Assembly: GCF_003056405.1 (NCBI RefSeq)
Contig: NZ_PYVZ01000012.1
Location: forward strand, 62,001-126,000
Direction of reading: 5' to 3'
Origin: Devosia indica
GTDB taxonomy: Bacteria; Pseudomonadota; Alphaproteobacteria; Rhizobiales; Devosiaceae
Length of the DNA: 64,000 bases
Shown: one piece after another, positions 25,654-33,357 of the stretch
Layout: each line of letters begins with the position of its first letter
Position numbering within the stretch: the first letter of the stretch is position 1
Notes under the pieces: generated by a model
What the model saw: the letters and a program-made list of their open reading frames with translations, nothing else
What the model was told of the DNA's origin: nothing
Databases searched by the model: none
Program-made: the position numbers and the translations under genes

Positions 25654-26943
25654 TCAGTCTGGGATGGTGCCGTTCTTGGCCAGCACATCGCCCGCCAGAT
25701 AAAGCGAGCCACAAATCAGCACTCTTGCGCCTTCGAAGCCTGCGGCCGCCTTGAGTGCGCTGGTGATCGAGCGCATGGCCTTGGCGGGGAAGCGCTGCGC
25801 CCGCGCCCGGGCGGCAATCTCTTCGGACTTGTGGGCGTTCTCCTCGCCCGGAATGGTCAGGGTCAGCACCTGGGCCGGATGCAGGTCGCGAAACACCTCG
25901 AGAAAATCTTCCGGCGCGCGATTGTTCATCATCCCCATGATCAGCACCAGCGGCTTTTCCGGCATGCCGGCAATGGTGCGGGCCAGAGCCGCTGCGCCAT
26001 GTGGATTGTGCCCGCCATCGAGCCACAATTCATGGCCTTCCGGCAGCAGGTCGCGCAGCTTGCCTGCGCGAATCGGTTGCATGCGCGCCGGCCAGGTGAC
26101 CCGCCGCAGCCCCTCGGCAAAACCGGCCGCGTCAATCGGCAGGCCAAACTGGCGGGCCGCGGCAATGGCCAGCCCGGCATTGTCGAACTGGTGCGGGCCG
26201 GGCAGGGCCGGAGGCGGCAGGTCGAGCAACCCGTCCTCGTCGGAATAGACCAGCCGCCCATCCTGTTCGGTGCCGTGGAAATCCTCATTCTGCCAGACCG
26301 GCGTCACGCCCAGCCGTCGCGCGGCCCGCTCAAGCACCGCACGGGCCTCTTCGTGCTGGATCCCCATCACCGCCTTTGATCCGCGCTTGAGGATACCGGC
26401 CTTGTTCGAGGCAATTTCAGCCAGCGAATTGCCCAGGAACCCCTGATGGTCATAATCGATCGGCGTGATGATCGTGCCGAGCGGATGGCGCACCACATTG
26501 GTCGTGTCATAAGTCCCGCCCATGCCCGTTTCGAGCAGCAGGAAATCGGCCGGCGTGTCGGCAAACAGCTTGAAGGCGGTCACCGTCGTCACCTCGAAAA
26601 AGGTGATCGGATCCCCATTGTTGACCTGCTCGACCTCTTCGAGCGCCGCATTGAGTTTTCGCGTGCCCACCAGCGTGCCGGCAAGGCGGATACGCTCGTT
26701 GAACCGCACCAGATGCGGAGAATTATAGACATGCACCGTCTTGCCGGCCGCCTCGAGAAAGGCGCGCAGATAGGCAATGGTCGACCCCTTGGCATTGGTG
26801 CCCGCAACATGAATCGTGGGCGGCAGGTGGTCCTGCGGATTGCCCAGCTTTTCCAATAGCGGGATCATGCGATCCAGGCTGAGATCGATCAGCCTGGGAT
26901 GCAGCTTGCTCAAGCGGGCGAGAATGGCGTCGGTGCGGGACAA
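25654..26943 (-). CDS. folC: Bifunctional folylpolyglutamate / dihydrofolate synthase
   Basis: 429 residues. Mur-ligase family: adds glutamate to dihydropteroate and to folates. P-loop HVAGTNAKGST, then SPHLVRFNERIR and the LLETGMGG segment (carbamate/Mg region), then LDGGHNPHGA in the C-terminal domain. The start was set at TTG 26943, which has GGAG 6 bp upstream and yields MSRTDAILARL, a typical start; a TTG 24 bp earlier is possible. I recall folC following accD in relatives; here it stands alone, convergent with the YcaQ-like gene and next to a repeat region. Confidence 0.92.
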   Translation of the reverse strand: MSRTDAILARLSKLHPRLIDLSLDRMIPLLEKLGNPQDHLPPTIHVAGTNAKGSTIAYLRAFLEAAGKTVHVYNSPHLVRFNERIRLAGTLVGTRKLNAALEEVEQVNNGDPITFFEVTTVTAFKLFADTPADFLLLETGMGGTYDTTNVVRHPLGTIITPIDYDHQGFLGNSLAEIASNKAGILKRGSKAVMGIQHEEARAVLERAARRLGVTPVWQNEDFHGTEQDGRLVYSDEDGLLDLPPPALPGPHQFDNAGLAIAAARQFGLPIDAAGFAEGLRRVTWPARMQPIRAGKLRDLLPEGHELWLDGGHNPHGAAALARTIAGMPEKPLVLIMGMMNNRAPEDFLEVFRDLHPAQVLTLTIPGEENAHKSEEIAARARAQRFPAKAMRSITSALKAAAGFEGARVLICGSLYLAGDVLAKNGTIPD

Positions 26944-26992
26944 GAGAGTCTCCGAATTTGGACACAATGCCGGTCATGCCACCGGCCCGGCA

Positions 26993-27121
26993 CCTCCCCC
27001 TTGACGGGGGAGGCTGGGAGGGGGTGCTTCAAGCGCATGGCGCCAGACAACCTCCTCCCCAGCGTTGCTATGGCCTTCGGCCTGGCGCCGCCTCCCGCCC
27101 CGCAAGGGGGAGGGGCGAGAA
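26993..27121. repeat. GC-rich intergenic repeat region
   Basis: Starts with an 8-bp hairpin, CCTCCCCC / GGGGGAGG around TTGAC (26993-27013), followed by further C- and G-tracts (AGGGGG, CCTCCTCCCC, AAGGGGGAGG). This is the style of dispersed palindromic elements found between genes in alphaproteobacteria. It lies between folC and the end of pheT. Confidence 0.55.
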
Positions 27122-27124
27122 GAG

Positions 27125-29545
27125 CTACTTCCTCAATTCGCCGCCCGTCGTCTTGGTCACCGCCGCCACCACGGCCGAGGAAACCTTGTCGATTTCCTCA
27201 TCGGTCAGCGTCCGCTCGCGCGGTTGCAGCGTCACCTCGATAGCCACCGATTTCTTGCCCTCACCCACATGGCTGCCCTCGAAGACGTCGAAAATGCCCA
27301 CGTCCTTGATCAGCGCCTTGTCGGCGCCCCGGGCGGCCTTGAGGATGGCGGCAGCAGTCACGCCACGATCCATCACGAATGCAAAGTCCCTGGAGACCGG
27401 CTGGAACGGGCTGAGCGCAAGCGCCGGCTTGGTCCTGGTGGCCTTCTTGCGCGGTTCTGGAATGGCATCGAGATCGATCTCGAACGCCGCCACGGGGCCC
27501 TCTATGTCGAGCTCGGCACTCAGCGCCGGATGCAGTTCACCAAACCAGCCCAAGGTCACCTTGGGACCAAGGGCAATGCGCCCGCCGCGCCCCGGATGGC
27601 TCCAGTCCGCCGCTTCGGGCAGCACCTGCACCTTCTCGATATCGACCCCCAGCGCATCAAGCACGGCGGCCAGGTCCGCCTTGGCATCCCACACGCCAAC
27701 CGCTTCGGCTTTGCCCGACCAGTGGCGGCCGGCGCCGTCCAGCGTTGCCGTGCCGGTGCGAATACCGGACGCATAGGTGTGCTGGCCTTCGGGCTGGTCC
27801 GACAGGAAAATCTGCCCGACCTCGAACAGCGCCACATCGGCAAAGCCGCGATTGGCATTGCGGCGCGCCCCGGCGATCAAGCCCGGCAACAGCGAGGGGC
27901 GCATATCGGTCATGTCCGAGGCAATGGCATTGGCCAATTGCCGGTCTTCGGTGCCCCCGCCGAAGCGGGCCGCCTCGTCGTGACTGATGAAGCTCCAGGT
28001 CACCGCCTCGTCCAGCCCGCGTGCCGCCAGCGCTCTGCGGGCGATACGACGGCGGTTCTGGATGGTGGTCAGCATGCGTGGCGCGACATGGGTCAGCCGC
28101 GGCAGCGGTTCGACCGGCACATTGTCCACGCCCACCATGCGCATCACTTCCTCGACCAGGTCCGCCTTCTGCGTCACGTCCGGGCGCCAGCTCGGCACCT
28201 TGACGTTGCGCACCGGGCCAGTGCCCTCCATGGCAAAGCCGAGCCTGCCCAGGATCGCCTCGATCTCGTCTGCCGAAACATCAAGACCGGTCAGGCGGTT
28301 GACCTCGGCCAGCGGGAAGTCGACGCGCGTATCAGGAAACACATCCTCGCCCGATATCGCCGGCTCCATCGGCTCGCCGCCACACAGCTCCAGCACCAGC
28401 CGCGTCGCCAGCTCCATGCCCGGTTCGGTCAGCGCCGGATCGACACTGCGCTCAAGCCGATAGCGCGCGTCTGAGACTATGCCGGTCTTGCGGCCGGACT
28501 GGGCGATCAGATCAGGGTCCCAGCTCGCGCATTCCATGAACACATTCGTGGTCTCCTCGGTGACGCCCGAGCGGATCCCGCCCATGATCCCGCCCAGGCA
28601 GAGCGGGCCCTTGTCGTCGGCGATGACGGTCATGCTCTCGTCGAGCGTATAGACCTTGTTGTCGAGCGCGTCGAACGCCTCGCCACGCGCATTGCGCAGC
28701 ACCATCGTGCCTTCAACCTTGTCGGCGTCATAGGCGTGCAGCGGCCGGCCCCAGCCGAGCGAGACCAGATTGGTGATGTCGACCACCGCGTTGATGGGCC
28801 GCAACCCAACGGCTCGCAACCGCTGCTGCAGCCAGTCGGGCGAAGGGCCGTTCTTGATGTTCTTCAGGTACCGCCCGGCAAACTTTCGGATCGCCTTGGG
28901 CTCATCCGCATCGAACTGGTGCGGCAGCGGCGCAATCGGGCTCGGGCCTGTGGAAGGGATGGGTGTGAAATCATTGGCTTTCAACGTGCCCAGGCCAAAG
29001 GCGGCGAGATCCCGCGCCACGCCATAAACGCCGGTCGCATCGCCCCGATTGGGGGTGATGGAAATGTCGAAGACCACGCCATCCATGCCGGCATAATCGA
29101 CATATTTCACGCCCACCGGCGCATCCTCAGGCAGTTCGATAATGCCGTCATGGTCCTCGCTCAGTTCCAGTTCGGCATTGGAGCACAGCATGCCGTTGGA
29201 CACCTGCCCGCGAATATTGCCCTTGCCGATGGTCATGTCCTTGCCTGGGATATAGGTGCCGGGGAAAGCGAAGACGGATTTGAGGCCCGTGCGGGCATTG
29301 GGTGCGCCACAGACCACGTCGATCAGCTCGCCGGTGCCCGCGTCAACTTTACATACACGCAGCTTGTCGGCGTTTGGGTGTTGCTCGGCCGAAACGATAT
29401 GGGCGGTCACGAAGGCTTCCAGCGCCTTGCCCTGGCTTTCAATCGCCTCCACCTCGAGACCGATCATGGTCAGCGCCTTGCCGATCTCGTCGGCGGAGGC
29501 CTCGGTGTCCAGATGTTCCTTGAGCCAGTCGAGGGTGAATTTCAT
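27125..29545 (-). CDS. pheT: Phenylalanine-tRNA ligase subunit beta
   Basis: 806 residues, the full bacterial length. Domains in order: N-terminal tRNA-binding OB fold (about 40-150), B3/B4 editing domain, B5, catalytic-like core, and C-terminal FDX-ACB anticodon-binding domain (from about 710, with SPFQPVSRDFAF). Works as alpha2-beta2 with PheS. In most bacteria pheT follows pheS directly; here a 346-codon gene separates them, with 12 bp to pheT, so all three are probably one transcript. Confidence 0.96.
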   Translation of the reverse strand: MKFTLDWLKEHLDTEASADEIGKALTMIGLEVEAIESQGKALEAFVTAHIVSAEQHPNADKLRVCKVDAGTGELIDVVCGAPNARTGLKSVFAFPGTYIPGKDMTIGKGNIRGQVSNGMLCSNAELELSEDHDGIIELPEDAPVGVKYVDYAGMDGVVFDISITPNRGDATGVYGVARDLAAFGLGTLKANDFTPIPSTGPSPIAPLPHQFDADEPKAIRKFAGRYLKNIKNGPSPDWLQQRLRAVGLRPINAVVDITNLVSLGWGRPLHAYDADKVEGTMVLRNARGEAFDALDNKVYTLDESMTVIADDKGPLCLGGIMGGIRSGVTEETTNVFMECASWDPDLIAQSGRKTGIVSDARYRLERSVDPALTEPGMELATRLVLELCGGEPMEPAISGEDVFPDTRVDFPLAEVNRLTGLDVSADEIEAILGRLGFAMEGTGPVRNVKVPSWRPDVTQKADLVEEVMRMVGVDNVPVEPLPRLTHVAPRMLTTIQNRRRIARRALAARGLDEAVTWSFISHDEAARFGGGTEDRQLANAIASDMTDMRPSLLPGLIAGARRNANRGFADVALFEVGQIFLSDQPEGQHTYASGIRTGTATLDGAGRHWSGKAEAVGVWDAKADLAAVLDALGVDIEKVQVLPEAADWSHPGRGGRIALGPKVTLGWFGELHPALSAELDIEGPVAAFEIDLDAIPEPRKKATRTKPALALSPFQPVSRDFAFVMDRGVTAAAILKAARGADKALIKDVGIFDVFEGSHVGEGKKSVAIEVTLQPRERTLTDEEIDKVSSAVVAAVTKTTGGELRK

Positions 29546-29557
29546 CTTTTCAGGTCC

Positions 29558-30598
29558 TTAGCGGAAGTCGCTGACGCTGCCGGTGATCGGGGGCAGCGCC
29601 GAAGAAAGTTGCAAGAGTTCGACCAGCACATTGGCAAAGCCGCGGGCATCATCGATTGCCCTGTGGGTGTGCGGAATATGGCCGTAGAACTCGGCCGGCA
29701 GCTTGCTCATGCCCCAGTCGAGATAGGGCGCGCCGCGCAGCGTGCCGGCCATGGTGTAAAGGCAGATGCCGCCGCCGCGGAAAATCTGCCGCCCCTTGAA
29801 CGGGCCCGAAAGCGCCCGCGTGCCGGCATATTCATCCAGATAATGGTCCATCCAGAGGCCATCAAAGATCATCGGCGCGGCCACGAACACTTTCGGGCCG
29901 GGCAGGCTCTCCACCCAGTCGGCATAGCGCGGCATGACAATTGCCGGGTCCTCGGCATTGTACGTCGCCGCCGCCCAGGCTTCGGGCTGGGTCGCCCACC
30001 ACGCCATGGTGGTTTCGTTCTGCTTCCGGTCCGGGCGCGGGGTCAGCACGGCTTCGAATTCACCATGGCGCGCGCCATCTGCTGTCACCGCCACCGAGGC
30101 AAAGCTCAGCATGGAATTGTGCAGCGGCGTCGGCCCGTCGCTCTCGATATCGGTCACAATGAAGATCGGCGTCGCCACGCGATGATAGACTGCGCGCCCC
30201 GCCGGCAGCACGGTCACGAGCCGGAAGGTCTCACAGACAACCTGCATGTCAGGCGAAAACCCGCCATTGCGGGCAAAGAAGGCCTCGTGCCCCGCCCGCC
30301 ATTCGGCATAAGGGCCTTCGCCTTCAAGATCGGTGAAGCTGGGGTCAATATCGTCGAAGCGCTTGGTCTCGACGGAGATGGTCTCGATGACGCAGGCCTC
30401 TTCGCCTTTGCCATTAAGCACCACGTCGCGGCGGCCGACCTCCGGCATGGGCTCGCCGCCCTGGCCATAGTCGCGCAACGCCCCGCAGGTCGCGGTCTTT
30501 TTTCCCGCCAGCACCAAAGCGAGCAAATCGTCAGCCAACTCCGGCGTGTCGCCAAAGCTGAACCGGATCGGCTCTCGTGTGGTGAGGGCGTTGGCCAT
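29558..30598 (-). CDS. ASCH domain - DEDDh 3'-5' exonuclease fusion
   Basis: 346 residues in two parts. Residues about 10-130 look like an ASCH domain, a PUA-like RNA-binding fold (FGDTPELADDLLALVLAGKKTATC, seen as its first part, then VVCETFRLV). Residues about 145-335 look like a DEDDh exonuclease: VTDIESDG (ExoI Asp/Glu pair), APMIFDGLWMDHYL (ExoII Asp), and HTHRAIDDARG (ExoIII His...Asp). Such a pairing suggests an RNA-directed 3' nuclease. It starts 6 bp after the pheS stop and ends 12 bp before pheT, so it is made together with phenylalanyl-tRNA synthetase. Function unknown; tRNA 3'-end trimming or quality control is a guess. Both halves could also be two domains with separate activities. 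Confidence 0.75.
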   Translation of the reverse strand: MANALTTREPIRFSFGDTPELADDLLALVLAGKKTATCGALRDYGQGGEPMPEVGRRDVVLNGKGEEACVIETISVETKRFDDIDPSFTDLEGEGPYAEWRAGHEAFFARNGGFSPDMQVVCETFRLVTVLPAGRAVYHRVATPIFIVTDIESDGPTPLHNSMLSFASVAVTADGARHGEFEAVLTPRPDRKQNETTMAWWATQPEAWAAATYNAEDPAIVMPRYADWVESLPGPKVFVAAPMIFDGLWMDHYLDEYAGTRALSGPFKGRQIFRGGGICLYTMAGTLRGAPYLDWGMSKLPAEFYGHIPHTHRAIDDARGFANVLVELLQLSSALPPITGSVSDFR

Positions 30599-30604
30599 CG
30601 GTGC

Positions 30605-31735
30605 TTAGCTCGAAAGCCCCCCGAACAGCGTCGGCAGGTCCAGCGGCCGGAACCCGTAATGCTCGAGCCAGCGCTGGTCGGCGTCGAAGAACGCCCGCAG
30701 GTCCGGCATGCCATATTTCAGCATGGCGATGCGGTCGATACCGATGCCCCAGGCGAAGCCCTGATAGACATCGGGATCGAGCCCGGCATTGCGGATGACG
30801 TTCGGGTGCACCATGCCGCAGCCGAGGATTTCGAGCCAGTCATTGCCCTCGCCGATCTTCACCTCGGACCCCGAGCGGTCGCACTGCACGTCGACCTCCA
30901 TCGAGGGTTCGGTGAACGGGAAAAAGCTCGGGCGGAAGCGCAGCGTGACACTGGGCACTTCGAAAAAGGCCTTCAGGAATTCTTTCAGCACCCAGCGCAA
31001 CTGGCCGATATGGCTCGACTTGTCGATGACAAGGCCCTCCACCTGGTGGAACATCGGCGTGTGCGTCTGGTCACTATCGTTGCGATAGGTGCGGCCGGGC
31101 ATAACCACGCGGATCGGCGGGTCCATGGCGGGGGTGATATAGCTCGCCGCCGGCTTTTCATTGGTTTTCTGCATCACGCGCATCTGCACCGGCGAGGTGT
31201 GGGTGCGCAGCACCTTCTTCACCCCGTCGGGCCCCGGCTTCATGAAGAAAGTGTCGTGCATTTCGCGCGCCGGGTGGCCTTCGGGGAAGTTCAGCGCCGT
31301 GAAATTGAAATAGTCGGTCTCGATATCGGGCCCTTCGGCAATGGAAAAACCCATGTCCGAAAAGATCGCGGTGATCTCGTCAATGGTCTGGGAAATCGGA
31401 TGTATCCGGCCGCGCGCGGTGGGTGCGGGCTTGAGCGGCAGGGTGACATCGACCGTCTCGGCCGCCAGGCGCGCTTCCAGGGCGGCGGCCTTGAGCTCGG
31501 CGCTGCGCGTTTCAATCAGCCCGGCAATCTCGCCCTTGAGCCCATTGATCGCCGGCCCGGCGGTCTTGCGCTCGTCGGGTGCCATTGATCCCAGTGTCGC
31601 AAGCAGGGCCGACACACTGCCTTTCTTGCCCAGCGCCGAAACGCGCACAGTCTCGAGCGCTGCCTCACTGTCCGCGCCGGCTATGGCGCTGGACAATTCG
31701 CTGCGCAGGGTTTCGATTTGTGTTTGCAGGGACAT
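30605..31735 (-). CDS. pheS: Phenylalanine-tRNA ligase subunit alpha
   Basis: 376 residues. Class II synthetase catalytic subunit: N-terminal coiled coil, then [10 protein letters not shown], the motif 2 region HTSPVQMR with nearby Arg, and GWGIGIDR-like motif 3 seen as [14 protein letters not shown]. Joins phenylalanine to tRNA-Phe with PheT. The ATG at 31735 starts the standard coiled coil; the frame remains open upstream only because it crosses a palindromic intergenic repeat. It follows rplT after that repeat and the rplT terminator, so it likely has its own promoter. Confidence 0.95.
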
Positions 31736-31750
31736 GCTGAACTCTCGCAA

Positions 31751-31834
31751 GACCTCATCCTGAGCCTGTCGAAGGGGGAGGTCGGTAACCGGGGTGCCCG
31801 CGACCTCGTGGCTCGACGGGCCCACCATGAGGTC
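31751..31834. repeat. REP-like palindromic element between rplT and pheS
   Basis: An 84-bp imperfect inverted repeat: ends GACCTCAT / ATGAGGTC, inner arms CCTGAGCCTGTCGAAGG and GGCTCGACGGGCCCACC (imperfect complements), and GAGGTCG / CGACCTC around the centre. The unit resembles the 'CTGAGCCTGTCGAAG' palindromes I recall as dispersed between genes in many alphaproteobacteria. If translated it gives the spurious peptide [12 protein letters not shown]. Confidence 0.75.
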
Positions 31835-31860
31835 TATGAAAAATCAGTGGTGGTTAGACC

Positions 31861-31905
31861 AAAACAAAACGCCCTGCGCCAGCCCTTCCGGGCGGCGCAA
31901 GGCGC
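31861..31905 (-). terminator. Intrinsic terminator of rpmI-rplT
   Basis: A long GC stem (31870-31905, one mismatch, GGAA loop) followed on the minus strand by TTTTGTTTT. It lies about 30 bp after the rplT stop and separates it from pheS. Confidence 0.85.
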
Positions 31906-31935
31906 AATTTTCAGCCTCAGCAGAGCTGGGAGAAT

Positions 31936-32337
31936 TTAAGCGGTGACGCGGGCGTGGGTCACGGAGTCCACGCTTTCCAGATATGCCAGCGCTTCCTTGG
32001 CCTTGACGACCAGGGCTGCGAACGCTTCGGGCTGGGTGATCGCGAGATCGGACAGCACCTTGCGGTCAACAGCAATCTCGGCCTTGCTGAGGCCGTCGAT
32101 AAATCGGCCATAGGTCAGGCCGTGATCGCGCACAGCGGCGTTGATGCGCTGGATCCAGAGAGCCCGGAAGTTGCGCTTTTTGACGCGACGATCGCGATAG
32201 GCGTACTGGCCGGCCTTTTCGACGGCCTGCTTGGCAATACGGATCGTGGATTTACGACGGCCATAATAGCCCTCGGCGGCCTTCAAGACCTTCTTGTGAC
32301 GAGCGTGGGCGGTTACGCCCCTTTTTACGCGTGCCAT
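31936..32337 (-). CDS. rplT: 50S ribosomal protein L20
   Basis: 133 residues. Early-assembly 23S rRNA-binding protein; N-terminal basic helix ([20 protein letters not shown], split in the family signature) and the [15 protein letters not shown] segment are standard. AGGA ribosome site before ATG 32337. Directly downstream of rpmI. infC, which I recall at the head of this operon in many bacteria, is not in the window, and no L20 autoregulatory leader of the E. coli type is evident. Confidence 0.97.
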
Positions 32338-32356
32338 TTTCTAGTGTCCTTCCAGC

Positions 32357-32557
32357 TTAGCGGTTGTACGGCATGTACCACTTCACCAGACCCTCGTCGC
32401 CCTTGGACAGGATCTTGGTGCCGCGGTTGGTGCGGATGTACTTTGCGTTGTGGCTGATCAGGCGGTGGCGCTTGCCGGCAACGCCGGACTTCACCTTGCC
32501 CGTGGCGGTGAAGCTGAACCGCTTCTTGGCGCCGGACTTGGTCTTCATTTTGGGCAT
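32357..32557 (-). CDS. rpmI: 50S ribosomal protein L35
   Basis: 66 residues. The full family signature [14 protein letters not shown] is at the N-terminus and [15 protein letters not shown] toward the end. AAAGGA ribosome site about 9 bp before the ATG; the frame's upstream extension has no support. Head of the rpmI-rplT pair; 19 bp separate the two genes. Confidence 0.97.
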
Positions 32558-32695
32558 TTTGCTTGGTCCTTTAGAGTATTTTGGATGGATTTGAGGCCCA
32601 TCGCATTCAAAGACCGCCACGGCATGCCTTTTGGCCGGGCGGTCCGGAGATGGCGCTTCATAAGGGGAAAAGGCGGGAGTGGCAAGGCCTCTGCG

Positions 32696-33277
32696 CTATT
32701 TCCGCTTCGGCTCATAAACCAGGTTGATACCCTGACCCACTCGACCGGAATGAATGAGCGTCAGATCGACCGGCCGCTCGCCAGTGTCGGCAAAGATCTT
32801 TACGCCCGCGCCGACCATCACCGGAGCAACCTGCAGGAAGATCTGGTCGACCAGGCCCGCCCGCAGCATGGCTGATCCCAAGGTCGGCCCGAGTATGACC
32901 ACCATTCTGCCATTGGCCTTTGCCTTCGCCTTGGCCACGGCGCCCGGCAGGTCATGGCCATCGGCCCAGAAGAAGCGCGGATCGTCCGGAAAGGGTCGTC
33001 GCGTCACCACATATTCGGGAATGTCGTCAAGCCCATAAGCCTTGGGAATCTCGTCCCAGCCCTGGCAGAGATCATAGCCACGCCGCCCGCCCAGCGTACA
33101 ACCAACATTGGCCATGACCATGTCGACCAGTGGATTGTCCGGCGGCGGGCCGGCCTCTTCGCCTTCACCCATCATGAACATCAGGCTGTCATTCGCATCG
33201 GCGGCAAAGCCATCAAGGCTGATTGCCGTATGCCAGATGATGCCATCGGTCCTGAGAATATCGGTCTGCGTATCCAT
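32696..33277 (-). CDS. Dihydrofolate reductase family protein (RibD C-terminal domain)
   Basis: 193 residues. RibD_C/DHFR-like Rossmann fold: ISLDGFAA near the N-terminus, GGRRGYDL, VVTRRPF, and GPTLGSAMLRAGLVDQIFLQVAPVMVG split by the nucleotide-binding GPTLG loop. Stand-alone proteins of this type are annotated as putative NADPH-dependent reductases with unknown substrate; not the true folate enzyme. 80 bp separate it from the glycosyltransferase gene upstream on the same strand. Confidence 0.8.
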   Translation of the reverse strand: MDTQTDILRTDGIIWHTAISLDGFAADANDSLMFMMGEGEEAGPPPDNPLVDMVMANVGCTLGGRRGYDLCQGWDEIPKAYGLDDIPEYVVTRRPFPDDPRFFWADGHDLPGAVAKAKAKANGRMVVILGPTLGSAMLRAGLVDQIFLQVAPVMVGAGVKIFADTGERPVDLTLIHSGRVGQGINLVYEPKRK

Positions 33278-33357
33278 CCGTATCTCCCTTGCTGTCCGTT
33301 CATCGACGAAGGAGCATTACCGGCTTCGACACGGTTGCTCTTTGTTCGGCCTGGTTG

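Follow-up and report, generated by a model that had tools for sequence, protein, structure and literature searches.

Between the genes for the two subunits of phenylalanyl-tRNA synthetase (PheRS) of Devosia indica lies a third gene, here called gene X, whose sequence and predicted structure show a true fusion, with an ASCH domain of the EF3133 type joined to an intact DEDDh 3'-5' exonuclease. We analyzed it in its window, i.e., the whole stretch of 64,000 nucleotides of DNA under study, and compared it across genomes of the same genus, family, order, and class. The reading we favor, at a confidence slightly above even, is that X is an accessory, bifunctional nucleic-acid- or nucleotide-processing enzyme that is made together with the L35-L20-PheRS cluster and is dispensable. 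A literature search, mainly of titles and abstracts, returned no description of an ASCH-exonuclease fusion at pheS-pheT.

Table 1 Features of gene X and its surroundings, in window coordinates.
Feature	Coordinates	Strand	Evidence or remarks
rpmI (L35)	32357..32620	-	TIGR00001, E 2.8e-17; called from GTG; L35 match from residue 23
rplT (L20)	31936..32337	-	TIGR01032, E 2.4e-47
pheS, PheRS alpha (ORF as called)	30605..31828	-	TIGR00468, E 6.7e-96
Gene X, ASCH-DEDDh exonuclease fusion, 346 aa	29558..30598	-	
ASCH domain, residues 12-130 (EF3133/DUF984 type)	30209..30565	-	PF04266; 1t62/3s9x by sequence and fold
K34 codon	30497-30499	-	ASCH half
T37 codon	30488-30490	-	ASCH half
E92 codon	30323-30325	-	ASCH half
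Linker helix, residues 132-141	30176..30205	-	Predicted structure
Predicted DEDDh 3'-5' exonuclease domain, residues 143-338	29585..30172	-	D150, E152, D246, H312, D317
AAGGA, Shine-Dalgarno-like, for pheT	29555..29559	-	Overlaps X stop TAA 29558-29560
pheT, PheRS beta	27125..29545	-	TIGR00472, E 1e-218

On the minus strand the genes follow one another in the order rpmI-rplT-pheS-X-pheT-folC. The gaps of 6 bp (pheS to X) and 12 bp (X to pheT) given by a first-pass annotation of the sequence were confirmed, and TIGR00468 and TIGR00472 name the flanking genes. That annotation also took the placement to force co-expression with the synthetase; co-expression stands in a somewhat different form, in that the AAGGA motif overlapping the X stop codon is well placed as the ribosome-binding site of pheT and X is probably co-translated with PheRS. 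Most X-bearing loci of the window's genus have a stop codon and a following or overlapping AGG ahead of pheT. The stop codon of the exonuclease gene even overlaps the start of pheT, or comes very close to it, in several other genera. A promoter scan of positions 26900-33300 found 0 sites against a mean of 1.0 expected, a result that is little informative for an alphaproteobacterial promoter, while terminator-like sites in the same interval numbered 9 against 4.6 expected, with none in the two short gaps.

The assignment of X as a true ASCH-exonuclease fusion follows from domain matches, fold, and conserved active-site residues taken together. Its N-terminal half matches the Pfam ASCH family PF04266 over residues 23-128 (E 7.3e-20, 72 bits against a cut-off of 21.2), and the corresponding profile matches EF3133-type ASCH proteins in the PDB at E 8.5e-32. 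In single-sequence Pfam searches the C-terminal half gave sub-threshold matches only (Rv2179c-like, E 3.5e-4; RNase_T, E 0.12), with X falling short of the PF16473 (Rv2179c-like) gathering cut-off at 20.8-22.9 bits against 27; its identity became clear once it was aligned and modelled. PF16473 matches 19 of 20 aligned members and PF00929 16 of 20 at E<=1 (best values 1.3e-7 and 1.5e-6, respectively). An AlphaFold2 model of X based on a 70-row alignment (mean pLDDT 92.9, pTM 0.81) places the ASCH half in the expected beta-barrel fold, matching 3s9x (VIA Z 17.7) and 1t62 (VIA Z 17.4), and the exonuclease half among DEDDh enzymes. All five catalytic residues are present, and across 103 distinct homologous sequences they are retained in nearly every member (D150 in 101, E152 in 100, D246 in 102, H312 in 99, and D317 in 101); K34, T37, E92, W100, and H104 form the conserved residue set of the ASCH half. 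The reading frame of X contains no internal stop and the fusion recurs as a single frame in 46 of the 75 genomes of the window's genus, which rules out two separate genes or an assembly artefact and agrees with the first-pass description of X as one gene joining these two domains. Finally, median pairwise dN/dS across 24 genomes was 0.148 for the ASCH half and 0.114 for the exonuclease half, compared with 0.168 for PheT and 0.091 for PheS (only pairs with dS of 0.2-1.5 used, i.e., 238-275 of 276 pairs). These low values, similar to those of the synthetase subunits, show purifying selection on both halves, and hence that X is kept functional.

The best solved relative of the exonuclease half is Cap18, recovered from the PDB at E 9e-6 with a profile of the 20-member alignment, and matched by the model at VIA Z 19.4 and 23% identity. 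Cap18 is a 3'-5' exonuclease of a CBASS operon (PDB 7t2s; PMC9122588), whereas X lies among the housekeeping genes rpmI, rplT, pheS, pheT, and folC. None of these flanking genes encodes a CD-NTase, and the housekeeping context rules out a defence island, while PADLOC nuclease profiles match X as an 'Effector' exonuclease (E 7.2e-8) and a DEDDh nuclease (E 4.4e-4). RNase T, which like other DEDDh enzymes shares the fold with X at 13-17% identity, reaches VIA Z up to 18.4 and the Pol III epsilon subunit 16.2; after Cap18 and RNase T, the entries for DinG, DnaQ/epsilon, oligoribonuclease, and TREX1-like proteins rank close together. Since Cap18 is barely ahead of RNase T and the others are close, the fold cannot separate DNA from RNA as a substrate.

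For the ASCH half, the nearest structures are the EF3133/DUF984-type proteins 1t62 and 3s9x (32-34% identity by Foldseek), single-domain structural-genomics proteins titled without a function; X differs from them by its added exonuclease. A tested precedent for an ASCH domain is E. coli YqfB, an N4-acetylcytidine amidohydrolase of the ASCH superfamily (PMC6972931, PMC9599836), which shares the superfamily with X but lacks a nuclease domain. YqfB is reported to hydrolyse N4-acylcytidines; a Lys21-Thr24-Glu74 triad has been proposed, a Thr24Ser variant is active, and Arg26, which belongs to the oxyanion hole, is essential (PMC6972931). This triad aligns to K34-T37-E92 of X, with a weak local profile alignment (hhalign probability 5 and 12 percent) that fails in global mode. 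All 70 pheT-linked ASCH rows have K at the K34 place and E at the E92 place, and 69 of the 70 have T or S at the T37 place; the underlying split into 70 linked and 28 free rows includes the mislabelled L054 and L073 (see below). An equivalent of Arg26 is not strictly kept, the candidates being G39 by motif spacing and, by gapped alignment, R42, which is present in 50 of the 70 linked rows. YqfB (1te7) is absent among the structure matches listed, which is no evidence against the likeness. The conserved Lys-Thr-Glu set thus indicates that the ASCH half may be catalytic, with the caveat that the alignment behind the triad is weak. Consequently, the first-pass label of an "RNA-binding-type" ASCH domain holds for the domain itself through PF04266, and its RNA-binding part is unsure, with a possible hydrolase triad being kept. 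ZmASCH of Zymomonas mobilis is described as binding nucleic acid and weakly cutting single-stranded RNA (PMC5615036); it shares the ASCH fold with X, but its motif is GxKxxxxR whereas X has G39 at the Arg place, and it was not recovered in a PDB profile search with the ASCH half at E<=1. The ASCH passages of an EVE/ASCH survey (PMC7641849) concern toxin-antitoxin-like and restriction contexts, and a search of it by term did not return 'pheS', 'phenylalanyl', or 'DEDD'. A paper published in Structure in 2025 that deals with ASCH proteins and nucleotide processing, and is cited in PMC13160076, may also bear on function.

Across the family of the window, parts of X were matched in 102 of 136 genomes, in several arrangements. 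Beyond the 46 in-frame fusions, and as read from a match table (as are all genus and family counts), the 75 genomes of the window's genus comprise 12 with the exonuclease alone, 2 with ASCH alone, 11 with nothing, 2 with a broken exonuclease, 1 with a fusion seemingly split by a contig end, and 1 with a remote relative only. Among the other 61 family genomes, 11 encode ASCH and exonuclease as separate neighbours, 6 (genus g37) a fusion in the reverse order EXO-ASCH, 16 an exonuclease that has no ASCH next to it, 5 only ASCH, and 23 neither part. The closest relatives of X in named genomes belong to Devosia species (identity up to 90%). Wherever main-match family loci were fetched, the part or parts lay between pheS and pheT (38 of 38), as they did in every locus with both flanks available (52 fused and 14 exonuclease-only, excluding L058, whose contig starts inside the gene, and L068); these 52 and 14 loci are not independent because the source locus sets overlap in strains. 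Two secondary ASCH copies (L097 and L107) sit elsewhere. Conversely, in 13 genomes searched for pheT (10 of the 11 X-less genomes of the genus, 2 of another genus, and G086, which has the remote relative only), pheS adjoins pheT in every case, with gaps of up to 542 bp, and in the ten X-less genomes of the genus both ASCH and exonuclease are absent from this pair. One locus (L073) contains ASCH and two different exonuclease copies in a single pheS-pheT gap, and in another (L067:4764-5384, with L098 from the same genome) a Devosia exonuclease carries a different in-frame N-terminal stretch and both exonuclease and pheT are frameshifted.

The gap between pheS and pheT is an insertion site for accessory genes in the window's order. 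Pfam identified in it a BrnT toxin with a BrnA antitoxin (L051), DUF421 (L085), DUF559 (L142), and a DUF4160/DUF2442 pair in both L038 and L115, the latter being the 542-bp gap (DUF2442 assigned from the L115 copy, DUF4160 from the L038 copy). Proteins from four further gaps tested (L032, L069, L086, and L105) had no Pfam match at E<=0.001, and L144 has a long ORF in this position. Such unrelated genes in the same gap weaken any argument from position. They are also compatible with X being a passenger in a permissive slot, an account in which ASCH and exonuclease have no relation to PheRS or to each other and the fusions are accidental losses of a stop codon. Rapid turnover speaks for this, with the six arrangements requiring at least 41 changes on a 106-row PheT tree (up to 495 residues, a short tree search, and sequences interrupted by a stop within PheT left out), as does the short distance separating most unfused pairs. 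We nevertheless consider it somewhat unlikely, given that both active-site sets and low dN/dS are retained after fusion, that there are two fusions, one in each order, whose ASCH halves stem from separate branches, and that the ASCH gene of one other family, f43, follows pheT and thereby occupies a different slot.

The history of the two fusions bears on the same point. Gene trees were computed after dropping near-identical rows (ASCH from 98 to 90, exonuclease from 103 to 79) and leaving out the frameshifted L067 and L098. The six genomes with the g37 EXO-ASCH fusion are grouped in a single clade by the PheT tree (support 100). The predicted structure of this fusion is as confident as that of X (pLDDT 93.5, pTM 0.88), its ASCH half groups with the ASCH proteins of f43 (98/85), and its exonuclease half branches outside most of the family. 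These trees suggest that the two parts were joined on two independent occasions, once as ASCH-EXO and once as EXO-ASCH. Genes for the exonuclease alone or for ASCH alone are nested among the fused genes of the window's genus, so that fused genes there seem to have lost one half or the other. The pheT-linked ASCH genes, as labelled, do not form one clade; two rows labelled 'free' are in fact in a pheS-pheT gap (L054, with PheT cut by a contig end, and L073, more than 1.2 kb away), and the 8 changes of the 'free' label therefore overstate ASCH mobility. PheT itself may have recombined, and L021 sits far from its genus.

Outside the family, the link to pheST persists and is not limited to one genome. 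Of 249 genomes sampled evenly across the order, 14 contain the exonuclease family, namely 7 beside pheT (5 from the window's family, plus G050 of f15 and G329 of f26), 6 away from it, and 1 without a PheT match. The ASCH family occurred in 33 of these genomes and beside pheT in 18 of the 33, i.e., 5 from the window's family and 13 of the 28 others. These 13 come from five families, with ASCH upstream of pheT in f19, f23, f28, and part of f34, and downstream in f43; in the latter (L133-L137), the ASCH gene lies about 100 bp after pheT rather than ahead of it. Its presence beside pheT in five families besides that of the window makes the link to pheST a recurrent one. Among 387 genomes of the class searched at E<=1e-20, the exonuclease was found in 12 and the ASCH family in 21; outside the order, none of the 11 exonucleases lay beside pheT, and of the 19 ASCH genes 1 did (G572, where the contig starts). 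The order and class counts together indicate that the link is strong inside the order and almost absent outside it, bearing in mind that many of these genomes are drafts in which 'not linked' can reflect a contig break.

This recurrence could point to a functional partnership between X and the synthetase flanking it, in which X would act in PheRS-linked tRNA quality control, for instance by trimming or decaying uncharged or damaged tRNA-Phe 3' ends. RNase T trims tRNA 3' ends, and it is among the close fold matches of the exonuclease half; ASCH genes beside pheT on either side in several families and in G572, as well as exonucleases between pheS and pheT in f15 and f26, would fit such a partnership. 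The pheT-linked exonucleases, however, group as a single clade (99/88), pointing to a single, subsequently inherited insertion rather than repeated recruitment, X is missing from 11 of the 75 genomes of its genus, its halves occur singly elsewhere, and toxin-antitoxin and other unrelated genes use the same gap. The role on tRNA that the first-pass annotation read from the location is possible but unsupported as it was stated, because position alone is weak evidence on substrate, and we regard the tRNA account as unlikely. Because many relatives lack one or both parts, X looks accessory and outside the tRNA-charging machine.

Under the favored reading of an accessory processing enzyme, the exonuclease half would shorten strands from the 3' end, using the two-metal mechanism of DEDDh enzymes, and release 5'-NMPs. 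Given its fold and residues, 3'-5' cleavage of single-stranded nucleic acid is naturally expected, and its substrate may be RNA or a short single-stranded nucleic acid. With the triad being suggestive, its alignment weak, and the Arg not strict, the ASCH half is best viewed as either a substrate holder or a hydrolase: it could hold the single strand or a modified base, or alternatively could act like YqfB and deacylate, by hydrolysis, a modified cytosine of the product that is released. The frequent occurrence of the halves as single genes argues against an obligate two-step enzyme. The operon position would provide steady, growth-coupled expression, with X presumably dispensable for the function of PheRS. 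Few of the widespread ASCH domains have been assigned a tested function, and two fusions that join ASCH to one kind of nuclease, one in each order, provide a direct hint to the working partner of one ASCH subgroup. Each half of X is amenable to separate testing. More generally, the pheS-pheT insertion site is a warning against inferring function from operon position alone.

Copies of either part away from pheT were found in varied surroundings. A scan of 20 neighbours of unlinked ASCH or exonuclease copies displayed no consistent theme and no steady nucleic-acid context; the unlinked ASCH genes L146 and L185, from two unrelated families, are close to acyl-CoA carboxyltransferase-type genes. 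The exonuclease family has distant relatives in the jumbo phages Atu_ph07 and Phosso (26-28%), relatives in 4 viral contigs, and plasmid-borne relatives of up to 50% (Paenarthrobacter). X was therefore considered as a mobile-element gene, a candidate that was rejected since the pheT-linked copies form a single clade despite these phage and plasmid relatives. A further exonuclease relative (L148) is located on a 97478-base contig of G283, equal in length to an Acuticoccus plasmid record in which it carries the label DNA polymerase III subunit epsilon.
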